Positions 2,578 to 49,553 of a stretch of DNA of 64,000 bases are shown here, in pieces. Position numbers and translations under genes: made by a program. The stretch is from assembly GCA_033439255.1 (NCBI GenBank), contig CM065890.1:1612001-1676000 (forward strand), given 5' to 3'. Numbering within the stretch: position 1 is the first letter of the stretch; the number at the start of each line of letters is the position of its first letter. The notes under the pieces are model-generated. The model was given only the letters and a program-made list of their open reading frames with translations, had not been told where the DNA came from and did not search any database. Origin of the DNA: Hericium rajendrae (taxonomy: Eukaryota; Basidiomycota; Agaricomycetes; Russulales; Hericiaceae).

Positions 2578-3567
2578 ATGTCCAACCCTGAGATCGGCGT
2601 CAAACCTGCTCCCTTTGAGGGAGATCGTTCCAAGTCCAAGGAATTCCAGCTGCGTATTCGCTTATTCCTTCGCGCCAACTCCACCCGGTATAAAGATGAT
2701 ACCGCCCAGATCTCCCTCTTCCTCGACCTCTGCCAGGGCCCTATCGCCGGCCAGTGGGCCACCCAGCGCGTCGAGGAGATCCTTGAGGATGACGATCTCG
2801 TGGCTGCAAAAACATCTCCAGCTCATGTTCCCCGCTACGCCAACCTCACCGCCCTTCGAACTCGCTTCAACTTGGACTTCTCTCCCCTTGACGACTCCAA
2901 GGATGCCTCCCATGCTATCCAGACCCTCCAGATGGGTACGCGCCCGGTAGTCGACTACATCACCGAGTTTGAGTCCTTCGCCCCTCGCACCGGCTACAAT
3001 GACGTGGCCCTGATCGACTGGTTCCTGCATGGCCTCAACAGCGCCCTGCGCGATGATTGCCAGCGCAGCTACCCCACGCCCACCACCCTGGCTGAGTGGA
3101 AGGCGAGGGCCCGTGACAGGAATGCTGCCTACCTCATGCGCACCCGGTTTCAGAGTCCCCGCCCTACAACTGGGCGCACCCCGGTGAGCACTCGCTCCCC
3201 TCAGTCCACATCTACTGGCCGATCCCGCACAGTTGCTGCTACAGGTGCCCCACTGTCCAAACTCTCGGAGCCTGACCGTGAGCGCCTCAGGCGTGAGGGC
3301 GGTTGCTTCCGCTGCCGCCAGAAGGGCCATGGCTTCCGCGACTGCCCCCTCAATGCCGACTCCAACCCCCGTGCCCCAACCCCTCGTGTCCGAGCGCTAG
3401 AAACCGGCTCTGCCCCGGGAGTAGCTCCAGAAGATGCAGCAGCCGCCCTCGCTGTCCCCGCCATCAACAGGTCCATCGCCGACTTATCGTCGCAGTTGAA
3501 GGACTTGAGCGAGGAAGAGAGGGAAGAGGCAAAGGCTGCATTAAAGGATATGGTTGAGGGTTTTTAA
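2578..3567 (+). CDS. Gag-like protein of the Gypsy element
   Basis: The 329-residue frame encodes a retrotransposon Gag, the shell protein that packages element RNA in the cell. A capsid-like segment (about residues 10-190) with the hallmark PFEGDRSK start and an LxWxxxAxxRNxA-like end is followed by a proline/serine linker. Then comes a CX2CX4HX4C zinc knuckle (about residues 243-256) that would bind RNA. The last 50 residues are rich in glutamate and lysine. The ATG at 2578 is used because the similarity to Gag starts there. The frame has no upstream ATG close by, but open sequence rich in acidic and proline residues continues upstream to about 1882. Confidence 0.8.
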   Translation: MSNPEIGVKPAPFEGDRSKSKEFQLRIRLFLRANSTRYKDDTAQISLFLDLCQGPIAGQWATQRVEEILEDDDLVAAKTSPAHVPRYANLTALRTRFNLDFSPLDDSKDASHAIQTLQMGTRPVVDYITEFESFAPRTGYNDVALIDWFLHGLNSALRDDCQRSYPTPTTLAEWKARARDRNAAYLMRTRFQSPRPTTGRTPVSTRSPQSTSTGRSRTVAATGAPLSKLSEPDRERLRREGGCFRCRQKGHGFRDCPLNADSNPRAPTPRVRALETGSAPGVAPEDAAAALAVPAINRSIADLSSQLKDLSEEEREEAKAALKDMVEGF

Positions 3568-3590
3568 AGCGCCCCCCGGTCACGTCGTCC

Positions 3591-6500
3591 GTGGGTGGCA
3601 AGAAACATTTCTTTGATCCGTCGAATCGCTTCTCTGTACTATCCGACCCCTGTGAGCAATCGTATCCATCGTCTTTGCGCATGTCCGCTATCACACCCAA
3701 CCGTCAGACACCGTCCATTACGCTCCAGGCCAAGATTATCACTGCCCCGATCAAGAAACAAATCGACGCTGAGGCACTTCTCGATAGTGGTGCAGAAGGC
3801 ATTATTATGCACCCCGAGTTTGCCAAGAAACACCAGTTCCCCCTCAAGAAACTCCCTAAACCCTTTCCCGTTCGCAACGTGGACAACTCCGAAAACATCA
3901 TGGGCTGGGTCCGCTATTCCGTCAACCAGAACATCCGCATTTACGCCAAGGACTTGACGTCCTTCCATGAGGAGACAGCTGAGTTCTATCTCGTTGATAT
4001 TGGCGACTATGACATTATCCTTGGGACCGATTGGTTACAGGAACACAACCCTGAAATTGATTGGGTCTCTCGTCGTGTTGACATGACTCGCTGCCCTCCC
4101 TCTTGCACCCTGAATAAGCCCCCGGTCAAAAACCTGTCCACTCGCTCAGAACGCCGCCAATCAGCCCCCGTCCACCAGTCCTCAGTACCGCTGCTGTACT
4201 GCTCCCCCCACCTTGCCCCCCTCCATTGCTCCCACTGCCCCCGCCATTTGTTCCTGCCCCACTTCCCAAATACGTGATCCCCGCTCGCCGAGTCCAAGGT
4301 GTCCGTCTTCGCCGCATCCACCTGTCCAAAGTCCCTGCATGTCTGTTTACCGAGGATGATGACCCGCGACCTAACGTCGATGATGACTGGGTTGAAGAGG
4401 GTCTTCGCCTAGCTGGTGTTCTCCCTGACTGGGACACACCACCCCCTCCAGATGACGACCCAGACTACCAACATACCATCCGTATCCGTCGCTCTTTCAC
4501 CAATGCTCAGAAACTGGCTGAGCGTGTGGCCGCCCATGTTGCGGAGAAGTCCTTTGCTGAGATGGTTCCCCCTCAGTACCAGGATTTCCAACCCGTCTTC
4601 GATGAGGAATCCTCCCATCGCCTTCCTGAACGTCGCCCTTGGGATCACGCCATCGACCTGAAAGATGGTTTTGAACCCCGTTCATGCAAGGTCTATCCCA
4701 TGGCTCCCACTGAGCAGGAGGACCTCGATTCGTTCCTTGATGACCAGGTCAAAAAAGGCTACATCCGTCCTTCCAAATCCCCTATGGCGAGTCCCTTCTT
4801 CTTTATCAAGAAAAAAGATGGAAAACTACGCCCGTCCAGGACTATCGCACCCTCAACAAGGGCACCATCAAGAATGAATATCCCCTGCCCCTCATCTCTG
4901 AACTCGTTGACAAGCTCAAGGGTGCCAAAGTCTTCTCCAAGATGGATGTTCGTTGGGGTTACAACAACGTTCGCATCAAGGAGGGCGACGAATGGAAAGC
5001 CGCCTTCAAAACCAACCGCGGTCTCTTTGAACCCCTGGTGATGTTTTTTGGTCTTACAAATTCCCCTGCCACGTTCCAAGGAATGATGAATGAACTTTTC
5101 AAGGATCTCATTGACACGGGCAAAGTCGTCATCTACATGGACGATATCCTCATTTTCACCGAAACCCTCGAAGAACATCGCGACCTCGTGCGCAAGGTCC
5201 TCCAACGCCTCCAGGACAATGACCTCTTCCTCAAACCAGAGAAGTGCTCTTTCGAGCAGCCCTCCGTTGAGTTCCTCGGTCTCATCGTCTCCCATAACAC
5301 GCTTGCCATGGACCCCGTCAAGGTTGCAGGCATCGCTGAATGGCCTGCCCCCCGTAACGTCAAGGATGTCCAGTCCTTTGTTGGCTTTGGCAACTTCTAT
5401 CGACGCTTCATCCAGGACTTCTCCAAAGTCGCCCGTCCCATGTTTGACCTTACCAAGAAAGACCATCCTTGGGCCTGGTCTGCTGAATGTCAACATGCCT
5501 TTGAGGCTCTTAAAGCTGCGTTCACCTCGTCCCCAGTCCTTATCATGCCTGACCCGTCCAAACCCTACTTGGTTGAGGTCGATGCCTCAGACTATGCCAC
5601 AGGAGGTATCCTATCCCAGCGTGGGGAGGACGAGCAATGGCACCCTGTTGCTTACATCTCCAAGGCCTTCACTGCCCCTGAACGCAACTACGACATTTAT
5701 GACAAGGAACTCCTGGCCATCATCCGTGCCCTCGAAGCCTGGCGGCACTACCTGGAAGGCTCTCCCCATACTGTGGAGATCTGGACTGACCATAAGAACC
5801 TGGAATACTTCAAGTCTGCCCAAAAGCTGAGTCGTCGTCAGGCTCGCTGGGCTCTCTTCCTCACTCGTTTCGACTTCACCTTGATCCACAAACCCGGTAT
5901 TCATCACCGGCCAGATGCCATGTCGAGACGACCTGACCATAGAGAGGGGTGGACGACGACAACTCAGATCGTGTCCTCCTCGACCCCAAGTACTTCCAGA
6001 TTCGTGCTACACGTCCAGCCGCTGTCAAGTCCATTGGCAATGCTGATCTTCGCCAACGCATTCGCAATGCCAAGACCAAGGATATTGAGGTCGTTCAAGC
6101 CCTTGACGTGATCCTGAACAACGGTCCTCGCTCCCTCGTCAAGAACCTCCAAGAATGGAACTACGAGGATGACCTCATCCTCTTTCGTGGCAAAGTCTAC
6201 ATCCCTGCTGACAAGGACCTTCGGCGAGATATCGTCAAGCTGCATCACGACACTCCCATGGCTGGTCACCCCGGACGCTACAAGACCTATGAGCTCCTCA
6301 GTCGCAACTACTGGTGGCCCGGTATGTCTGTCTTCGTTCGTGATTATGTTGATGGCTGTGCTACCTGCCAGGCCACCAAGGTTCAAAATCACCGCCCCCA
6401 TGTTGAAACAATCCCCAATGCCATCCCTACCCGTCCCTTCCAAGACATTACCTCGGACTTCATCGTCAAACTCCCAGAATGCCAAGGCTATGACTCCATC

Positions 6501-7565
6501 AACGTGGTCGTCGACCGTTTTACAAAGCACGTCTCCTTCACTCCTTGTAATGAGACCATTACCAGTGATGGCACAGTCGACATCCTTTTTGACAGGATTT
6601 ATCGGAACTACGGCCTCTGGGAACGCCTCATCTCTGATCGTGGCCCACAGTACGCAGGCAAAGTCATGCGTGGCGTCTTTGACAAACTTGGTATCAAGTC
6701 CTCCCTCAGCACCGCCTATCATCCACAGACCGATGGCGAGTCAGAACGCGTCAATCAAGAACTCGAGCAGTTCCTTCGTACCTTCTGCAACTACCGTCAG
6801 GACGATTGGGTCCAATGGCTCCCTTACGCTGAGTTCTCGCACAACCACCGTATCCACAGCGCCACTAACCGAGCTCCATTTGAAATGCTCCTCGGCTATA
6901 TTCCCACTGCCATCCCCACTGTCAACCCCACATCGTCTACACCTGCCGTCGAGGATCGTTTCCGTCACCTCGAACAACTTCGCACTGAGGTCCAGGCCAG
7001 CCTTCAAACAGCTGCTGATCTCATGAAGCGCAACAACCAGGACCATATGCATGACACCATCCACTTCCAGGTTGGCGACAAGGTCTGGCTCGATGGCAAG
7101 AACATCAAAACCACACGACCCAAAGCTAAGCTTGCTGATCGACGCCTGGGACCTTTCGAAATCACTGACGTCCTGGGCCCAGTCTCTTATCGACTGAAGC
7201 TACCACCCACCTGGCGTATCCACCCGGTGTTCCACACGTCCCTGTTGTCCCCTTACAAGGAAACCGATGCTCATGGTCCCAACTTCCCTGCACCTCCACC
7301 TGACCTTGTGGAGGGCGAGGAAGAGTACGAGTTGAGTCTGTCCTCGATGCTCGTCTCACTCGGAACAAACGCGGCATTGAATATCTCGTCAAATGGGCAG
7401 GCTACCCTGATTCAGAAAATCAGTGGCTTTCACGTACCTCCCTTTCCAATGCCCATGGTGCAATCACCGACTTCTACACCCGCCATCCGCATGCACTCAA
7501 GGCTCCCAATCTTCGTGGACTCATCTACCTCGATCCCGTCCATGCTCATCACGCACTCCAGGTGA
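3591..7565 (+). pseudogene. Pol region of the Gypsy element (fossil)
   Basis: The parts in order are: aspartic protease with the DSGA active site near 3783; reverse transcriptase from about 4560 to 5290, with the YMDD box near 5135; RNase H from about 5560 to 5900, starting at a DASDYA motif; an HHCC integrase zinc finger at about 6240-6375; an integrase core with D, D and E residues at about 6450-6790; and a chromodomain-like tail at about 7320-7540. The tail marks the chromovirus branch, whose integrases read histone marks. The coding sequence is spread over several overlapping frames with about four or five breaks, so no full Pol would be made from this copy. The age must be low because the LTRs match. 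Confidence 0.88.
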
Positions 7566-7589
7566 AAGTGTGTCTTAGAGAGGGGGTGA

Positions 7590-8012
7590 TGTCACAGATC
7601 GCTCCATTTCTCTCCGCCTTCTTCTCTGCCATCAAGGCATCGCGTCGGTCATGTGCTCCAGCAGCCCCATCACATGTTCACTTCCTCACATGACCTGGGG
7701 CTATCCTTCACCCATGCCCTTGTTCCCCTTTGGGACATCCTATTGTTCTCCCTCCCATTGTTCTCCTTTTGGCCACCATTGTTCTCACTCTATTGTTCGA
7801 CCCGTTATGGTGTCCATTGTTCTTTTCCCATTGTCGTCCCAGTACTTATAGGCTCCCTGTCGCTCGCCTATTTCCCTAGATTGTCCATTTCGTCTGTACC
7901 GTACTGTACCTCCAATACAGGTCACTGCGCTGCTAGTCGCTCTCTGCTCTCTCGCTCCCATCATCGCTGGTGACTTGGGTGGTTCTCTGCTGTCTACGAC
8001 CGAGTCTTGACA
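7590..8012 (+). repeat. 3' LTR of the Gypsy element
   Basis: The second 423-bp LTR is preceded by a purine-rich tract (AGAGAGGGGGTGA, 7577-7589). Its sequence equals the 5' LTR by eye, and it is followed by the CACTC duplication at 8013-8017. Confidence 0.93.
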
Positions 8013-40239: not shown

Positions 40240-41969
40240 TCAATGAAGAGAAATAGGAGATTGCCAGCCCCTCAGGCTCTCTAGATCCCGGAGATGTTCC
40301 GATGGGACTGCCTGTTTGTTAAAAACGAACTCCTCCACATCAGCAACCTTGCCTGATTCTTTCCTGGCGACAAGGCAATCAGCGATCGAGCCCAACATCC
40401 GTCTTTCCATCTCGCTGGAATTGTCTCTGTAATCCACGGTTAATGTCCTGATGCACGGAAAGGCAGAGCCGTTTCCGTCTGCCTGTGGATGCATGACCTG
40501 AATCACAGACTCCAGCGCCCCATCCTGCACAGTTAAGGTGCGAACGCCATAAAGGTGAGAAGCGAGGAGCTGAGCGGTGGGTTTGCTGAGTCTCGTCCAA
40601 TCGTTGGAGGATTCGAGAACCAGAGTCTCAACACTGTCGAAAGGCATCTGGACGAAAAGGTCGCGGAATGTCTCGTCGAACCCAGTGCGTATCGCCGGCA
40701 TCAGCAACATGTGGAAGCACATATCCGAAGAGTCCCTCTCGACGGACGTGCTAACGTAGGCGGCTATCTCGATCCGGATTGACTGCGAGATCGACAGCCC
40801 ACGCAACAGGCCGCGCGCACCGTACACCGGCCTGAGCATCGCCCCGACCCAAAAGTCTTCGAGCGCGGACGGAAAGGAGATCAGCCGCGTCTGCGTCGCA
40901 GGCGTGATTGGGAAACGATTCATGAACTCGCTCATCATGCGGACCGTATCACGAATGTGGAAATGGCGAAGATTCGTGCGAGGTGATAAGCGACGAGGAA
41001 AGGGCCGACTGGTGGGATCTGTGGAATCGGACCGCAGAGCGCTGCCGAGACGCAGATCGCGCAGATTCTCCAGAGGCTCTAAAAGAGCCAGCATTTGCGA
41101 TACGGTAAAGAACTCTGGGAAGCATGAGTTGAGATCCAATTCTGTAAGCGTCGTAGGAAAAACCGCCCCGGGCAAGGGCCTGATGCCGGTAAGTCGGAGT
41201 CGGATGAGTGTATTCGCCCTTTCAAGACAACCTGAGGGAAGGAACCCATGTATGGTACCCGACGATCGTCCTCCAGGGGAAAGCATTAAGTGCTTCAAAA
41301 CCGGCATCGGCGCCATGAGGTGTCTGGAGATTGTACTATCATGAAGCCATCTTGTAGGCATCTGTAGACGGATTTCAGATGCGCGATTGGCATGGGACAG
41401 GGCCATTGAGAGTGCATTGGGGGGATTATCTCCGTCCGACTCCGCAGTTACACGGTACTTGATCACTATCGGCAGTGGCTTGCTGCGTTGCAGCATGATC
41501 GCCGTTACGTCTGGGTGTACCAATGAAATGCCTTCCCAGAGGTGCGGCGTACTGATGGCAATTGTGCGCCAGCACTTGCATATGTGCATAATGACGATCC
41601 ATGTACGACTGAAGTTGAAACCGTCGAAGTCGAAGACGTCATGGTATTTGGAGGGGCGTGACCGGGAGGTGATGATGATCTCGTAGAAGATCGCGACCAT
41701 GACGTCTGTGGGGAACCACATGTTGATTGGGGCATACGCGTTGCGTTTTGCGCGTAGGTTGAGAGCATATTCTGAAGATGAGCCCGACGGGATATCTTCA
41801 ATTTCAGCATCGATGGCCAGCTGAGCAGCAGTGCATTCGCTAACGCTCAGCCGGGGACGGTTTGGCTGTTTCGGAGAATCTATGGTGGCCTTCAAATAAC
41901 CAACCTGATTCAGACTTCGATAGTCAAGATGAAAGAGGGAAACAAGCTTACTACGTCGACATTATGCAT
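40240..41969 (-). CDS. F-box/leucine-rich protein, cluster copy 1 (open frame)
   Basis: A 551-codon frame carries NMWFPTDVMVAIFYEI...HICKCWRTIAISTPHLWEGISLV, the F-box start of agaricomycete F-box proteins, then leucine-rich segments and the cluster's shared block LRPVYGARGLLRGLS and tail LRDLESLRGWQSP. Such proteins hold targets for SCF ubiquitin ligase. The two sister copies start MDS at a position where this copy has IDS (ATA at 41883-41881). A small upstream exon, ATG CAT AAT GTC GAC (41969-41955), joined to 41904, restores a start in frame (MHNVDVGYLKATIDSP). This is the only cluster copy without an internal break. Confidence 0.75.
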
Positions 41970-42349
41970 GGCCGTTGAAGGAATGACCCGCACCGTTGGG
42001 CTGGAGTAAATTGTTAGATTAGCGTCTCGAGCTTGACACCTTATACCATTCGACCCTGAGGCCTGTACAGCCTGCACGGGCTATGTACATAGGGTCGTCA
42101 CAGTATCGCTGATGATATGCAGTACGGAGGGTTTCACGGTAATGATACATATGTGGTGGTGGAAGTCTTGTGCCAAACGTTTTGAGTAATTCGAGGATGA
42201 TGCGATGCAGAGTGACGCCGGCCGAACCAACGACTTCCGGCCTGTGAGTCTTCGAGAGGCACCTAGTAAGTATACAGGATTCGACTTCAACTTTCGTTAT
42301 CTCAGGGTTGTCTATCTGACCTGCGACCGCCTGCGTCGACCGACGAAAT

Positions 42350-42640
42350 CCCTTGCCAGAGGCACGGCGTAGCGATCACGCGCCAGACTTGAACAACGAG
42401 GTGATGGCGACGCATTGTCGGCTGAAGTCGTGAGTTTTAAAACCTTCTTTAGGGACCAACATGCACTGGCGTCTGACGACAATCTCGACGAATATCGTGG
42501 CTATGAGTTCTCCTGAAAACCACGTGTTGATCAGAGCGTATGCGCTGGGTCGTGCATACAATATGCGGACCAATTCGGAAAATACTTCGGGCGCGCTTTC
42601 AGTCTCCTTGGCCTACTGGACAGCAACGCATTTGTGAAGG
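42350..42640 (-). pseudogene. F-box cluster copy 3, N-terminal fragment
   Basis: A short stretch encodes ARPSAYALINTWFSGELIATIFVEIVVRRQCML...FKTHDFSRQCVAI, matching the F-box start of the neighbouring copies (RNAYALINAWFPPELMAAIFHEIV). The rest of the gene is absent, so it is a truncated relic downstream of the copy 2 tail. Confidence 0.7.
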
Positions 42641-42758
42641 CTTGGCCAGGTACAATGGGAGTTGAGATTGACGAGTTTAAGGATGGAGAAAAGCTCTATT
42701 TGATTTACATGGTAAGAAAGAACCATTGACACCTGCAATAACTTACTTTAATTCACCA

Positions 42759-43408
42759 TTATCCAGTTACAGCCGCAGGAGAGTCAATAGGAAGAGGAGG
42801 GCTCTCCCAACTCCTCAGACTCTCAATATCCTGCAAGAGTTCTGGTGGGGCTCTGCAACCATTAATCATCAACTCCTCCAAGTCGGTAGCCTTGCCCGAT
42901 TGCTTCCTGGCAACCAGACAATCGACAATTGGGTGCAACACATCCTTGTTCACCTTTCTCGGACCATATCCGTCATGCACTATCAAAGAACAGAGAGCCG
43001 GGAAGCCAGGACCGTGTTCATCGGTCTGTGGTTGCATGACCCGAAGCATGGACTTCAGCACATCGATCTCCACCCACAGCGTGCGGACACCGGAAACATG
43101 AGAAGCGAGAAGCTGAGCCATAATCTCGGCGAGTTCCAAATGGTCGTCGGGCGATTCAATTACCAGCGTCTCGACGCCGTCCAGCGGGATCGCCTTGCAC
43201 AGGTCGCGCAGTGTTTCGTCCGGCGGGAAGATAAAGTCGTCGTCCGGCAGCACGAACAGGCGAAAGCAGATATCCGTTTCCGAGGGCGTGAGAGATGCGC
43301 TAGCGTAGCCTATAATCGTGATCCCATATGCAAATGAGAGCAACAGATGGCGCAGGAGGCCCCGTGCGCCGTACACGGGCCGGAGCACCTCCCCAAAGCG
43401 AACGTCTT
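42759..43408 (-). pseudogene. F-box cluster copy 2, C-terminal half
   Basis: This half starts at FSDEDVRFGEVLRPVYGARGLLRHLLLS at the edge of the inserted element and ends in LQDIESLRSWESPPLPIDSPAAVTG at 42759. It includes leucine-rich segments like IPLDGVETLVIES and LLASHVSGVRTLWVE. It is the missing tail of the gene whose N-terminal half lies at 46323-47341. The two halves are separated by the 2.9-kb inverted-repeat element. Confidence 0.82.
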
Positions 43409-43423
43409 CATCAGAAAAATGTG
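43409..43423 (+). repeat. Left terminal inverted repeat
   Basis: CATCAGAAAAATGTG, the exact reverse complement of 46308-46322. Confidence 0.88.
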
Positions 43424-43690
43424 TAAGTGGTACATAGCTCTATAAAGTCTACATAGATCTCCTAGCTCCATAGCACTGCCCTTTTCTCTATAGCCAGCAT
43501 AGCCAAAGGGAGGTGCTATGTAGTGCTATAGAGTTGAAGAGCAATGCTATGAAGTACTATCATAGCTATCATAGCTGACTATGCAACTACCATAGTATGT
43601 CTAGCTATCAAGACTATCAGAACTATACCATTGACATATGCTATATTCAATAGATAGACTTGGTACATCTATCTAAGATCCAAAAGCTAT
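43424..43690. repeat. Left subterminal CATAGC/GCTATG array
   Basis: Many short words CATAG, CTATG, TATAG and AGCTATCA in both orientations (for example GTGCTATGTAGTGCTATAG and CATAGCTATCATAGCTGACTATG), at roughly 8-20 base spacing. Subterminal motif arrays are transposase-binding sites in several DNA-transposon families; that role is inferred here. Confidence 0.75.
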
Positions 43691-44119
43691 TAGTACTATA
43701 TAAATTGCAATTGAATTATAAAGCTCAGTTAACTTATGAAGTAAACTTGATAAGATCTATACATTTTATCACAAAATAAACATAAATTTTATTTGTTATC
43801 TCAACAAGCTTGCATTGCATTAATCAATTTATATTGTATTATAATAACTACTATATAATAATATAGATACCATATAATATTTACAATGATAACTTACAAA
43901 AGAAAAATGACAATTATATATTCAGAGTCTATCAAAAACAAAATTAAGACATAAGTTAGAAGTATCAGAGAACATTATCAAATGACTTACAATCACCAAA
44001 ATAACACACAACTATAACAAGAAAAAGCGAAAATATAATCTAAAAAACTAAGAACATTAAGTATTAGTCAACAAAGACAGAAGAGAATTGACTCACAGAA
44101 TGCTAAAAGACATGAAATA

Positions 44120-44245
44120 AAAGGAACGAGCGAGACATAAGAAACAACGAATAAGAAGCGAGAAACAACGAAGAAGAAGCGAGAAACGACGAGCGAGACA
44201 TGAGAAACGACGAGCGAGAGACAAAAGACGAGAGACGAGACATGA
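44120..44245 (+). repeat. Purine-rich minisatellite inside the element
   Basis: Imperfect tandem copies built on GAGAAACGACGAGCGAGAC and AAGAAACAACGAATAAGAAGC make an almost pure purine plus C strand of about 125 bp. Opposite-strand frames are long only because of the repeat. Confidence 0.7.
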
Positions 44246-44739
44246 TGGAGGTTGGAGAAAGAGAGAGGATGCGCGTCGTGCGAGGGTTATATAGGTGAGC
44301 TCGGCTTTGCCCGGCGGAGCCCCAAATGTGGCTGCCGGGACCCGGCCCGGGCACCGTGTCAGACGCCAAGTCCCAGATCTCATTAATTTCGTTCCGCTTT
44401 CCAGTAGCTTATAGTACATAAGTTAGAGATGTAGCACATTCGATCGAATGATATTTGCAAGCGCTATATACTCTAGTTTTTTCTGGAATTGTTGCGATTT
44501 TATTTGCTTTGCTAAGTTCGAAAACATTCGAACGCGCGGCCGTTCGGTGGCTGAAGCACCGAAGTCGCATCGTTCGACTTGACTCCACTACCATTCACTA
44601 CGTCCTCTCGCGTCTTATTCTTCTCTTCCCTCGTCGCTCCTCAAGTCGAAGGTCGGAAGGGCTTGGTAGCAGCTGGAAGGGGCACAAGGTAAGTAAATAA
44701 AGTCTCCTGTCCTTGAAGTCGTGCTAATCTCGAGGGTAC

Positions 44740-45910
44740 CACTCGTTATCGAGCGGTACTCTCGTTTCTTTTCGTTGTTTCACTACTCCCCGCGACACCC
44801 CACCATCTTCGACACCCCGCCGCTCCTCTCGCACGTCCGCACCTCTTTCCATCACCCGCACCTTCGACAACGCCCGCCCCCACGTACGACTGCGTGTGTC
44901 CGCGCATCACCCCGTGCAGAGGCTCTGCTCTGCCCCTGCGGGCCTCCCGCAGCCCGTGCCCCCTCGCGCGCCGACGACCAATGGCCCCGTCAACGCCCGA
45001 CCACTGCTCCACCTGCCCCCGCCTGTCCGCGCACACGGCCGCGCATGACAGCGCCAGCACATGGCCATGCCCGCCTGTGCCAGCGGACGGCGCGGCACGG
45101 TCGTGCCAGCATACGCAAACCAGTACACAGCGTGCCCACGCCGGTCCACGGCCCCACCTGCGCCCGCATGTACACGCATACGCACGCACGTTCGCGCATG
45201 TCAGCGCCAGTGCATGAGCGCGCACGCCTGCGCCAGTGCACGGACCCGTGCGCACGGCCCCATCAACACCGGCCTCTTGCGCACGCAAGCCCACACACTC
45301 GCGTCCCCGCACGACAGTGCCAGGGCCACGACGCGCACGTTGTGCAGAGCCCCACCCCGCCCCGCACGGATCCAACGAGCTACCCACGGCCGCAGCCCGC
45401 GCACGAGCCAAGCAGGTCGCGTGCGATCCGCATGCCTCGCGCACAACCCCAACAGCACATGCACGCTGGCTAACACATGCTCCCGATTGCCCCGCGCCCG
45501 CTCACCATCCAACTACGTGCGCCCGCCGCGGATCCCGCGCGCACGGCCACACATCCATGGACAGTGCCCGCACGCCCGCGCCTGTCCCCATCAGCACGTG
45601 CCTGCCTGTGCACGCCTTCGCCTGCGTCGGATTGCGTGCGCACGCCCGCGCATGCCAGAAACGGTGGGTACCTGCGTTATCCCCCCCCACCGGCGCACGA
45701 TCTCCACGCTGTGGCAATGGCATGTCCTCGCCCCTGCGATGTCACCGTTGCTGCGCCGCCTTTCTCGCGTCGCGCACCCTGCACGCCATCTCTCCCGCGA
45801 CTCATGCCCCGCGCTGGCGCGTACAAGGCGGACACGTGTAACGTGTCCGGCGCCATCTCGGCTTGCGTGTGCGGGGCTCTCAGTCCCACGCATAGCTCAT
45901 GCGCATGTCG
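44740..45910. other. GC-rich, low-T core of the inverted-repeat element
   Basis: About 1.2 kb dominated by CGC, GCAC, CCCGC and GCACGC words, with few T or A runs. Several frames on both strands stay open for 70-300 codons, but their products are arginine/proline/alanine/histidine mixtures without a family, as expected from composition alone. I judge it non-coding low-complexity DNA. Confidence 0.6.
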
Positions 45911-46019
45911 GCGACAGCATGCACACGACGATCAAATGTATCCTAGTGTCATGCTACTTCGTATACTATACATTGCAGTGCTTTGATCTCATGTAATACC
46001 TTATTTTTGAAATACAATG

Positions 46020-46307
46020 ACTCTATATGAACTATAGATTGTATAGCAGCCTGAGATTCCATAGCAGCCTTATGAAGCTGTATAATGAACATAGCCTCTA
46101 TAGCATACATAGAGGGATACTAAAACCATATAGGTTACATAGCAGACATAGTAGTGTGTTATTGCTATGTAGTACTACATAGCTATCACCCATGGCTATG
46201 ACAGCTATGACAGCTATGATAGCTCTGTATAGTTGTGTGGCCCAACTACATAGCAGTCATAGCACTATGGAAGCAAACATAGCATTGGCTGGTAGCTATG
46301 TAGATTT
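46020..46307. repeat. Right subterminal CATAGC/GCTATG array
   Basis: About twenty copies of CATAGC, GCTATG and close variants (for example ATGGCTATGACAGCTATGA) occur in the last 290 bp before the right inverted repeat, mirroring the left array. Confidence 0.78.
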
Positions 46308-46322
46308 CACATTTTTCTGATG
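46308..46322 (+). repeat. Right terminal inverted repeat
   Basis: CACATTTTTCTGATG, the exact reverse complement of the left end at 43409-43423. Confidence 0.88.
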
Positions 46323-47341
46323 TTCGAGTGTATCTGGCGAACAATGGAGTGTTATCTGTGCCGTCGGCGTGACTAGGAATTGACTCATGAATGCGTTTCT
46401 CGCCCAGGCCGTCGTATTGATGTGGAAACGAACGAGATTCCTGCGCGGAGACATACGACGGGGGTCGCAGGGTACAGGGGGATCCGGTGGCTCCCGATAC
46501 AGAGCGCCCTCAATAGACAAAACACGCAGGCTCTCCAAAGGCTCCAGGACAGCTGCCATCTGCGACGGGGTGAATTTCTCTGGAAGTTGATGCATGTCTA
46601 ATTCTGTGAGTGTTGCAGGGAAAATGAATGTGGGGGAGAAGCCGACGGCGTAAAGAAAGAGGTGGTTGAGGGCAGTCATCCTTTCAAGACAGCCTGGAGG
46701 AAGGAAAAAGTCCTGCATAGGCCTGTATCTGCCGGGAGTCCGCAGCTCCAGCCGCTTCAATAGCGGCATCGGCTTCATCATGTGTTCGGAAATCAAAGCC
46801 TGCAGCCCAGCTGGATACATGTTCAGACGGATTTCGGATGCACGATCAGACTGGGAAAGGGCGATTGTGAGGGTGCTGATGGGTTCGGGCTTGCTTGACC
46901 ATGAGTGGTAGCCGATGATTATCGGCAATGGGATGCTGCGGTGGAGCATGATGGCAGTCACATCTGGTTTGACGATAGAGATTCGTCGCCAAAGCTCGGG
47001 GGTGCCGATGGCGATTATGCGCCAATTGTGACAAACATGGCTAACGGCCACCCAAGTTTTGCTGAAATTGTGATCTGGAAAGTCTTTGCTGATGACATAG
47101 AACCATGGAATGTTTCGAGTGGTGACGGCGATCTCGTGAAATATTGTGACGATGAGCTCTGGCGGTAACCAAGCATTGAATAAGGCATACGAATTACGTC
47201 GCATGCGCAACTTGCGAGCTGATTCTGCGGTGACGACGGCAGGATCTCTCTGATTTCCACATCGATGGCTTGCTGAGCGGCAATACACTCTTCAACACTC
47301 AGTCGTGAAGAATGCAACAGTGTAAGGGTACGAGAATCCAT
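46323..47341 (-). pseudogene. F-box cluster copy 2, N-terminal half
   Basis: It starts MDSRTLTLLHSSRLSVEECIAAQQAID, then the F-box RRNSYALFNAWLPPELIVTIFHEIAV...VCHNWRIIAIGTPELWRRISIV and leucine-rich segments (MMKPMPLLKRLELR, LDMHQLPEKFTPSQMAAVLEPLESLR). It stops at SPDTLEHQ, where the inserted element begins. A one-base slip near 47,235 separates the first 35 residues from the F-box. The tail lies at 42759-43408. Confidence 0.82.
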
Positions 47342-47923
47342 GATTGTCTTTGAATAATCCCTGATAAGTCAAGATTGTGACTGTCGGGATGAAAAAGAGA
47401 AAATAACGTACAGAACAATGCGTATGCATCATGCTACGACATGCAACGAAGTAGGTCGCCCTTCGTTCTACCTGCAATGCAGTCTTATCAGCAATTCTTC
47501 AGAAGGGAGATAGTGTTGTCATAGACACAGACAATTATAACCTGAGGTCCCGAAGCTGAGGCCTGAGGAGCAAGAATATCCTGACTGTAGCACTAGAACG
47601 CCGTTGACGATGTGCCAGAGCTCAGAGTGGGTCAGAGCCGCTGGCAACCAGCGGCAGCCGGGCCGGTGACCGGTCCAGACCGAGCCGAGATCGAGGACAA
47701 CACCAATATTAGGTGACCTGTTATTGATATGAAGCTCGTATCAGGCAACAAATTGTTTCGTACAGTCAAAGTGATGTCGTGCAGCTTGGAGCAGAAATGA
47801 AGGGAAGATGGCCGCTTTTATATTATAAGACATGATGTTCTACTACAGATGCGAAAGGTATTGCCAGCTCTGCTCACTACAGCATGACAATTGTACTCCA
47901 CTCGAGCTAGTGGCCCTTGCGTA
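47342..47923. other. Intergenic region between F-box copies
   Basis: About 580 bp with no gene recognised. It holds the promoter of copy 2 and the 3' flank of copy 4. Confidence 0.5.
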
Positions 47924-49553
47924 CTATATCGTACCGTGGACACTAGAAGGGTGCTTCCAGCTCTTGAGGCTCTCGAGGTTCTCCAAATATTCCGATGGGA
48001 CGACCTCGCCGTTGATCTCCAGCTCCTCTATAACAGCAGTCATGTCTGAGCCTTTCCTGGCGATCAGGCAATCGGCGACAGGGCCCAACAAGTGCGCATC
48101 TAGCGCATCGTAATCATATGACATGTAGTGCACGGCCAACGCCCTGAGACGCGGGAAAGCGGGGCTGATCCCCCTTGCTTGGGGGTGCAAAACTTGAAGC
48201 ATGTGCTTCGTGGCCCGGTCCTCCACCCTCAGAGTCCGGACACCGTGGAGATGCGCTCCAAGGAGCCGCGCAGTGCTCTCTTCAAAATCACGTGCGGTTC
48301 CGACAGCCAGCGTCTCGATGCTGTCCAGCGGCAGAGTGGCGCACAGGTCGCGGAGCACCTCGTGCCACGAGAAGACGGGGTGCCGCCCCACCGACACGCT
48401 GAAGCACATCTCCGAGTCTATCATTGGGAGAGATGCGCTAGAATATCCGCCTATCCAGGACCTGCTTAAGAAAGAGAGGGATAGACCGCGCAGGAGGCCC
48501 CGTGCACCGTAGACTGGCTTGAGCATCTGCCCAAAATGGAGATCGTCGAGCGTCTCTACATCACATGAAAGCAACATCTGCGTCTCAGGCATGATCGGGA
48601 ATCGGCTCATGAAATTGTTGCGCTCGGGGGCCTGTGCATCAAGGTGGAATCAGACGAGATGCGTGCGGGACGAGAGACAACGAACAGCGGATGGTTCGGT
48701 GGTATCTGAAGCGTCCGGACGTAGGATGCCTTGGATGCGCAGTTCGCGCAGATTTTCCAGAGGCTCCAGGAGATTTATCATCTGCGACGCAGTGAACCTC
48801 TCCGGGGGGTACATGAGGGACAACACCGTGAGTGTGGAAGGAAGGATAGACCCAGGCAAATGCCAACTTCTAGGAGATAGAGGTGGCTGAGGACATTTGC
48901 TCCTTCCAGACAACCCGGGGGGAGGAAACATTCAGGAATGGCTGTCCATGGAGATCCGCCGTGACGGTAGAGTTTTAACTGCTTCAAGAATGGCATTGGC
49001 TTCATCAGATGCTTGGAGATTAGATTCTGTATTTGCACCGGAAGCATGACGAGTTCGATTTCGAACGCACGGTCGGCATGTGCCAGGGCGAGTGCGACTG
49101 TGTCGCTGGTCTCGTCTACATTGATTGAGCGGCAGACAATCGATATTGGCGATGCCTTGCTGCGGTGCAGCATGAGGGCAGTCACGTCTGCGCTAACCAG
49201 CGAAATGCTTTCCCAGAGGTGAGGCGACCCGATAGCGATCGTCCGCCAGACTCGACAAACGTGGCTAATGGCGATATATTCTGGATTGAAGCTGTGAGTT
49301 CAAAGCCTTCTTTACGGGACATGCCCTGGGAGCTGAGAACGATCTCGTGGAATATCGCGGCCATGAGCTCTGGTGGAAACCAAGCATTAATCAGGGCATA
49401 GGCGTTGCGCTATGCATGTAACATGCGGATCGATTCTGCAACTGATTCGGGCGGGATCTCTTTGATTTCTATATCGATAGCCTGCTGGACGGTGATGCAT
49501 TCCTGAAGGCTCAGCCGGGCAGAACAGAAATGGGACAGTATCTGTGAGTCCAT
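47924..49553 (-). pseudogene. F-box cluster copy 4, degraded
   Basis: It starts MDSQILSHFCSARLSLQECITVQQAIDIEIKEI at 49553, meets an in-frame TAG at about 49,412 (where sisters have AAG), then continues RNAYALINAWFPPELMAAIFHEIV. Leucine-rich parts follow in other frames (LISKHLMKPMPFLKQLKLYRHG, FTASQMINLLEPLENLRELRI), and the 228-codon tail LKPVYGARGLLRGLS...LENLESLKSWKHPSS ends at 47924. One stop and about three frame slips are visible, so it is probably a pseudogene of the same family as copies 1 and 2. Confidence 0.78.

Follow-up and report, generated by a model that had tools for sequence, protein, structure and literature searches.

A multicopy, non-autonomous DNA transposon family of probable PlavakaB type with a conserved internal stem, recognized from an interrupted F-box gene of Hericium rajendrae

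The window analyzed here is a 64-kb stretch of the genome of Hericium rajendrae, and its positions 40255–49439 hold a series of related F-box-type genes lying on one strand (45–47% identical), one of which is cut by an element of 2914 bp located at G000:C13:1655409-1658322. The features of the element are given in Table 1 by their positions in the window. Both ends carry the terminal inverted repeat CATCAGAAAAATGTG, which is perfect over 15 bp, as a preliminary description made from the letters of the window had reported, and which has one mismatch over 18 bp and 12 over 31 bp. The flanks of the window copy read ..AACGTCTT on the left and TTCGAGTG on the right, giving a 2-bp duplication, TT. 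When the flanks were joined without the element and with a single TT, an open frame of 538 codons was restored on the minus strand, with the junction at residue 322/323. Two sister genes on the same strand were aligned across this junction, namely the one at 41790–40255 (47% identity) and the one at 49439–47948, which aligned in three pieces with stop symbols in the alignment and with 45% identity in the piece covering the junction. The N-terminal half of the interrupted gene gave a Pfam F-box-like match (E = 7.1e-6). Since the frame closes and the sisters align across the junction, the borders are placed to the base and the duplication measures 2 bp; of the two flank repeats first considered, TT was retained and TTC was discarded. 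The element was thus inserted into an F-box gene and split it into the two halves that had been matched to the sisters from the outset. An additional partial match was found at 42585–42400.

A search of the host genome with the whole element revealed at least 105 matching stretches, including one 99% copy and two 89% copies; this number is a lower bound because 40 of 583 candidates were scored. The exact 15-nt end was matched 39 times and its reversed control not at all, and with up to two mismatches the end was matched 611 times versus 76 for the reversed pattern, 100 of the 611 being listed. Extended patterns gave no fewer than 102 sites for the left end and 140 for the right, and none for the controls. 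The ends listed, 100 for each side, included 60 left ends with a right end facing them within 25 kb, and these pairs spanned 2,663–3,801 bp in 50 cases and 6.9–18.5 kb in the other ten. Nineteen full copies were cut out. Eighteen of them were flanked by identical 2-bp sequences, the identity not reaching the third base, and as two copies (L012 and L013) share their flanks, they represent 17 independent sites; the duplications observed were TT, AG, TC, AA, TA, GA, CG, AT, CC, and CA. The remaining copy, L054, had the 3-bp duplication TAT, so that the duplication was 2 bp at 17 of the 18 independent sites and 3 bp at one. The two copies with common flanks lie 29 kb apart (G000:C12:1734097 and G000:C12:1705183) and probably arose by duplication of a chromosome segment and not by separate insertions. 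According to the preliminary description, the lack of a second copy with such ends would have pointed to a one-off rearrangement of the F-box locus; with 60 paired copies among the listed ends, and 19 full copies with sharp borders, that explanation is refuted.

Seventeen other copies were 99.4 to 54.4% identical to the one in the window, with one copy at 99.4%, two at 91.5%, and fourteen at 54–73%. Recent movement of the family is indicated, because the 99.4% identical copy, on C10, has flanks that differ from those of the window copy. The window element has CATCAG at both ends; in several copies, one end or both read CATCT instead. Three copies of 2,916 bp on G000:C8 (at 1598501, 1638542, and 1680362) have a common altered first base, AATCAGAAAAATGTG, and may reflect either a variant end that moved or a segmental duplication.

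The end sequence and the duplication length were compared with those of known superfamilies. In the part of Kojima (2025; PMC12730594) available for this comparison, PlavakaB is given the termini CATCA..TGATG with duplications of 2 or 3 bp and PlavakaA the termini TGT..ACA, and Plavaka is grouped with CACTA/EnSpm in the CMCT clade. The element begins and ends as in PlavakaB (5'-CATCA..TGATG-3', with CATCAG at both ends), and the duplications at all 18 independent sites are of the PlavakaB lengths. PlavakaA was rejected on its termini. Tc1/mariner was rejected because TA was duplicated at only one of the 18 independent sites, CACTA/EnSpm because of its CAC..GTG termini and 3-bp duplication, hAT because of its 8-bp duplication (known range, 5–8), and canonical PIF/Harbinger because of its 3-bp duplication, the 2-bp duplications found here being varied in sequence. 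The earlier remark that the ends are unlike those of canonical CACTA, hAT, PIF, and Tc1 elements is therefore borne out by end sequence and duplication length together. The same source (PMC12730594) lists Zisupton 8-bp and Kyakuja 7-bp duplications without terminal inverted repeats, and KDZ (Kyakuja, Dileera, Zisupton) was likewise rejected on the 2-bp duplication and the 15-bp inverted repeat.

Membership of one of these other superfamilies, including ISL2EU within PIF/Harbinger, or of an orphan family with an undescribed transposase, was weighed against this assignment. The search between ends identical to those of the element yielded no transposase, and the genome holds 31 matches to Transposase_21 (CACTA) and one KDZ gene; moreover, Harbinger relatives, whose transposases were not searched for, can produce 0-, 2-, or 3-bp duplications according to the part of PMC12730594 consulted, so that duplication length alone does not separate the element from ISL2EU and other 2-bp Harbinger relatives. 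However, end sequence and duplication length fit the published PlavakaB rule jointly, and none of the 31 CACTA matches lay inside any of the 60 pairs, which makes such an origin quite improbable.

The Plavaka transposase model PF18759 gave 132 matches in the host genome and none in 14 control genomes. No match to it was found in the element, and the two longest plus-strand frames of the core had no Pfam match, in agreement with the transposase-less state first described. Because no PF18759 transposase is encoded in it, the element is labeled non-autonomous and PlavakaB-type. None of 80 PF18759 places compared lay within the 50 pairs of 2.66–3.80 kb, and among the remaining 52 of the 132 rows, one overlapped the C3:1368993 pair at its right border. 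The family copy at that site (G000:C3:1368993-1372372) appears to lie within a Plavaka gene, and another copy, the one with the TAT duplication, lies inside a different Plavaka transposase gene (L054/L060, G000:C12:997300-1006800). In both cases, a presumed parasite has been inserted in a gene of the type that would mobilize it. The terminus lying downstream of the C12:1003163 Plavaka gene was rejected as the end of that gene's own element, since it belongs to the family copy inserted in the gene. A further copy, in L031 (G000:C4:413118-421117; 2909-4871 and 4868-7901), starts where a frame with the C-terminal portion of a KDZ transposase domain stops, with a CxC2 domain upstream, and may cut that gene.

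Transposase-bearing Plavaka elements with ends of this kind are present in the same genome. One of them was delimited at both ends (C4:1685208-1695833; 10,626 bp) and has the CATCAG ends CATCAGCAAAACGT and CATCAGCAAAACCC with a CA duplication. Its right end was set from the border of two 98.9% copies, and its left end was picked from three CATC(A/T)G sites in L066, the first 25 bases being a near-exact repeat of the right end (CATCAGCAAAACGTAAAATTTCTGA versus CATCAGCAAAACCCAAAATTTCTGA, with CA on both sides). A second class of Plavaka transposase has the right end CATCTGGAAAAAGTG (pair L047/L048), its left end lying outside the stretch read. In the third, at C12:1966025-1966711, the frame is followed after about 150 bp by an ATAGC/CATAG array of about 350 bp and then by the terminus CATCTGAGAAAAGAG at C12:1964348, and no other terminus was found between the gene and CATCTGAGAAAAGAG by the patterns used. 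The 5' part of this Plavaka is interrupted by an element that resembles Ty3/Gypsy by eye. ATAGC occurs in its array 14 times per 300 bp (3.3 expected, and no more than 11 in any of 500 resamplings), much as in the ends of the family element, where the dense subterminal arrays previously pointed out were confirmed by 13 and 16 occurrences in the terminal 300 bp on either side (3.2 and 3.4 expected; maxima of 500 resamplings, 12 and 13). Judged by this array, the C12 Plavaka is the best candidate for the kind of element that would mobilize the family. The borders of the full-domain Plavaka group (L034-L042) lie beyond the stretches examined.

Candidates for an autonomous copy were rejected. Among the ends listed, only one of the 80 transposase places lay between facing family ends, in the 18.5-kb pair, and it proved to be a nested Plavaka with its own ends. 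In the 8.5-kb pair at C11:1973260, 6 kb of the middle contains an element resembling, by eye, a nested long terminal repeat retroelement, with 588-bp direct repeats and a 716-aa frame without a Pfam match, and no transposase was seen in these 6 kb. As for the longer, transposase-bearing relative that the preliminary description had proposed to look for, Plavaka genes with such ends were found, and none of them between ends identical to those of the element.

The interior of the element was then compared among copies. In 50-nt bins over 16 copies, conservation was 0.88–0.92 in the first four bins and 0.92 in the last, fell to 0.34–0.47 in the lowest bins, and reached 0.90 and 0.87 at element positions 851–950. 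Splice-like signals were aligned at 33 sites from 27 of 63 loci: the GT of the intron-like block was kept in 31 of 33, a TACTAAY-like branch motif in all 33, and the distance from GT to the next AG was 43–49 nt in 31. On the other strand, the motif resembling a 5' splice site was found in 16 of 19 copies by one simple pattern, and the other three have a shifted TTACC in the alignment. The first AG after the stem described below was located at 97–190 nt in 16 copies (three near-duplicates dropped), as YAG in 15. In most copies, this is farther out than a first-order model would place it (0.000–0.063 as a fraction of 300 resamplings in 15 of the 16 copies and 0.133 in L054); the AG-free tract is weak evidence.

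The core had been called strange; its architecture is conserved in the copies read. All 19 copies have a common GC profile: of twenty bins, bins 3–5 have 19–33% GC (43% once), bins 11–17 have 58–77%, and the last three have 32–46%. On the plus strand, the G-C skew of the core is −0.20 to −0.33 and the observed/expected ratio of AG is 0.57–0.83 in all 19. In six pairs of copies, substitutions were about equal across the three codon phases and 55 of 67 indels were not multiples of three, which ruled out a coding core. As the phases are even, the indels mostly not multiples of three, and the two longest plus-strand core frames without a Pfam match at E 0.01 (minus-strand frames not scanned), the core is taken as non-coding, and the element appears to encode no detectable protein.

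Directly 3' of the branch-like motif lies a stem missed by the preliminary description, GAGGGTACCACTCG-TTAT-CGAGCGGTACTCTC, which has one A.C mismatch and one G.U pair in the window copy, where it folds at −30.7 kcal/mol (z = −3.7). The stem is present in all 19 full copies read, and its length of 13–14 bp is kept in diverged copies. In 17 copies, 95.6% of the cells were paired and the covariation was 0.201, compared with 0.119 for shuffled and at most 0.047 for slid alignments. In 33 copies, 94.9% of the cells were paired and the covariation was 0.273 versus 0.160 when shuffled (reached by 0 of 500) and at most 0.072 when slid; changes on both sides occurred at 7 of 15 pairs (reached by 5 of 500 shuffles) and in 36 cells (0 of 500), and 16 further pair types were seen (17 of 500), these values coming from an alignment that was fitted to the model and is biased towards it. 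RNAalifold, run on the same alignment, predicted 13 of the stem pairs on its own. No Rfam match was found in the element at the gathering score.

A stem pattern with two free pairs, searched genome-wide, was matched 157 times forward and 155 times in reverse, and the control never. The majority of sites are matched on both strands, which corresponds to at least 157 sites, or about 170 by extrapolation from the listed part. At 30 sites with letters shown, all 60 free-pair cells were Watson–Crick, with A-T, C-G, and G-C at one pair and T-A and C-G at the other. Of 54 distinct listed stem sites, 13 lay inside one of the 60 pairs. An inward-facing family end was found within 2.5 kb of 22 of the 54 and not of the other 32, which is not an unbiased rate, the end list having been composed of 100 rows of near-matching ends, 59 of 95 rows, and 15 hand-picked ends. 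These 32 sites could represent additional subfamilies whose CATC ends are different, or be of another nature. In 26 transposase-bearing loci, only four stem matches were obtained, all of them in L066 and outside its Plavaka.

Three explanations of the stem were considered. Compensatory changes may be neutral, since hairpin template switching during replication would copy one arm onto the other with no selection needed. Quasi-palindrome correction is a known mutational process, and it would yield perfect arms in diverged copies, but it leaves unexplained the kept splice-like signals, the 43–49-nt spacing, and the G.U that one pair retains in 10 of the 17 copies and in 11 of the 33; this explanation is rather unlikely. 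Alternatively, the palindrome could be a DNA site with two half-sites in inverted orientation, to which a dimeric protein of the host or of the transposon would bind, for instance a transcription factor acting at a divergent promoter. Near-perfect palindromes score on both strands, as most of the listed sites do, and the palindrome adjoins promoter-like signals. However, the half-site letters differ among copies yet change together, whereas a fixed binding protein would be expected to hold the letters and not the pairing; intermediates on the plus strand are G.U more often than A.C (20 versus 5 non-independent cells at 13 pairs); and the palindrome stands at a fixed distance past the intron-like block in the same orientation. 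Such a site is accordingly entertained as a possibility with reservations. Thirdly, the core could be a transposon-borne gene for a structured non-coding RNA, in which a promoter active in both directions, an intron, and a covarying stem located at the 3' splice site of that intron have been retained over long divergence because the RNA would serve the element, for example in splicing control, export, escape from silencing, or transposase supply. In yeast, stems between the branch point and the 3' splice site can shift the site used. The RNA gene is proposed tentatively, because the AG-free tract is weak evidence and the stem pattern occurs in few pairs. More generally, the conserved splice-like block and stem suggest either a transposon-borne RNA or a palindromic protein site.

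Taken as a whole, the element is best explained, and with high probability, as belonging to a large family of non-autonomous DNA transposons of the PlavakaB type (a relative of CACTA/EnSpm within the CMCT group) that would be moved in trans by a Plavaka transposase. Its core is probably transcribed in both directions, because promoter-like and splice-like signals and a covarying stem are kept in otherwise diverged copies, and the rightward RNA would be spliced or structured. A Plavaka transposase made elsewhere would bind the subterminal ATAGC arrays and the CATCAG ends, excise the element, and reinsert it in trans at varied sites by cut-and-paste, with staggered cuts of 2 bp that, judging from the duplications and from relatives, would produce the 2-bp duplication. 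Within the core, a divergent promoter would give a leftward and a rightward transcript, the latter being a spliced or structured non-coding RNA with its 3' splice site in or beyond the stem.

Several observations weigh against this explanation. Ends identical to those of the window copy were not seen to enclose a transposase gene, and as the middles of eight of the ten long pairs were unread and 100 of the 611 near-matching ends were listed, an autonomous copy may have been missed. The subterminal motif of the C4 Plavaka is TCTGA (16 and 14 per 300 bp) instead of ATAGC, and in the C12 Plavaka, which has the ATAGC array, the right end alone was readable. As for the core, 10 of the 16 copies, which are related to each other, have a longer stretch free of AG at another place in it, and two of the five covariation measures in 17 copies were not above the shuffles (reached by 49 and 371 of 500). 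Of the 32 pairs shorter than 4 kb in the listed range, only 10 contained the exact stem pattern; the stem may thus be absent or changed in many copies and present in other elements, the pattern being strict and the end lists partial.

Table 1. Features of the element and of the interrupted F-box gene (positions in the 64-kb window)
Feature	Position	Strand	Remark
Whole element, probable non-autonomous PlavakaB-type DNA transposon	43409..46322	+	2914 bp
Left terminal inverted repeat CATCAGAAAAATGTG	43409..43423	+	
Right terminal inverted repeat	46308..46322	-	
Target-site duplication TT, left copy	43407..43408	none	
Target-site duplication TT, right copy	46323..46324	none	
Left subterminal ATAGC/CATAG array	43424..43708		limit set by the 300-bp span counted
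Right subterminal ATAGC/CATAG array	46023..46307		limit set by the 300-bp span counted
Interrupted F-box gene, N-terminal half	46323..47291	-	
Interrupted F-box gene, C-terminal half	42762..43408	-	
Conserved TATA-like box of a putative leftward promoter	44285..44295	-	alignment of copies
Putative leftward motif resembling a 5' splice site	44090..44102	-	conserved
Intron-like block (GTAAGT, branch-like TGCTAAT, AG)	44689..44734	+	46 nt
Palindrome or stem-loop with compensatory changes among copies	44732..44763	+	
Tract after the stem, first AG at its end (GTGCAG)	44764..44919	+	
Non-coding core, C-rich on the plus strand, degenerate short repeats	44790..45900	+	70% GC

Compared with PlavakaB in the available part of Kojima (2025; PMC12730594), the element has the same ends and duplication lengths, and such transposases occur in the same genome, whereas it has no transposase or detectable protein, a structured non-coding core, and the subterminal motif ATAGC. 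The CMCT clade of that scheme (PMC12730594, in part) also includes CACTA/EnSpm, which the element resembles in its terminal repeats and subterminal arrays and from which it differs in ending in CATC instead of CAC..GTG and in duplicating 2 bp instead of 3. From what is accessible of PMC8290104 and PMC9674265, non-autonomous DNA elements of mushrooms, such as those of Marasmius oreades, are thought to be moved in trans and to have ends in common with transposase-bearing relatives; the M. oreades elements are mostly shorter than 1 kb (PMC8290104, in part), in contrast to the 2.7–2.9 kb and conserved internal architecture found here. The family had at first been taken as possibly undescribed. The superfamily is already known, so that part of the suggestion is not supported; searches of open-access papers uncovered neither this particular non-autonomous family nor its structured core, the supplementary sequences of Kojima (2025) and Repbase being outside the comparison.

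Plavaka elements are widespread in mushroom genomes and little characterized. Non-autonomous CACTA/EnSpm elements have short terminal repeats and dense arrays of subterminal motifs on both sides. A many-copy non-autonomous family of PlavakaB type with exact borders provides an independent check on the published rule for ends and duplications. Furthermore, with a splice-and-stem block conserved in an element where no gene could be detected, one can ask directly whether DNA transposons that lack genes come under selection for an RNA. Such transposons are usually thought to be selected for their ends only, and a role of the RNA, if true, would depart from that view.

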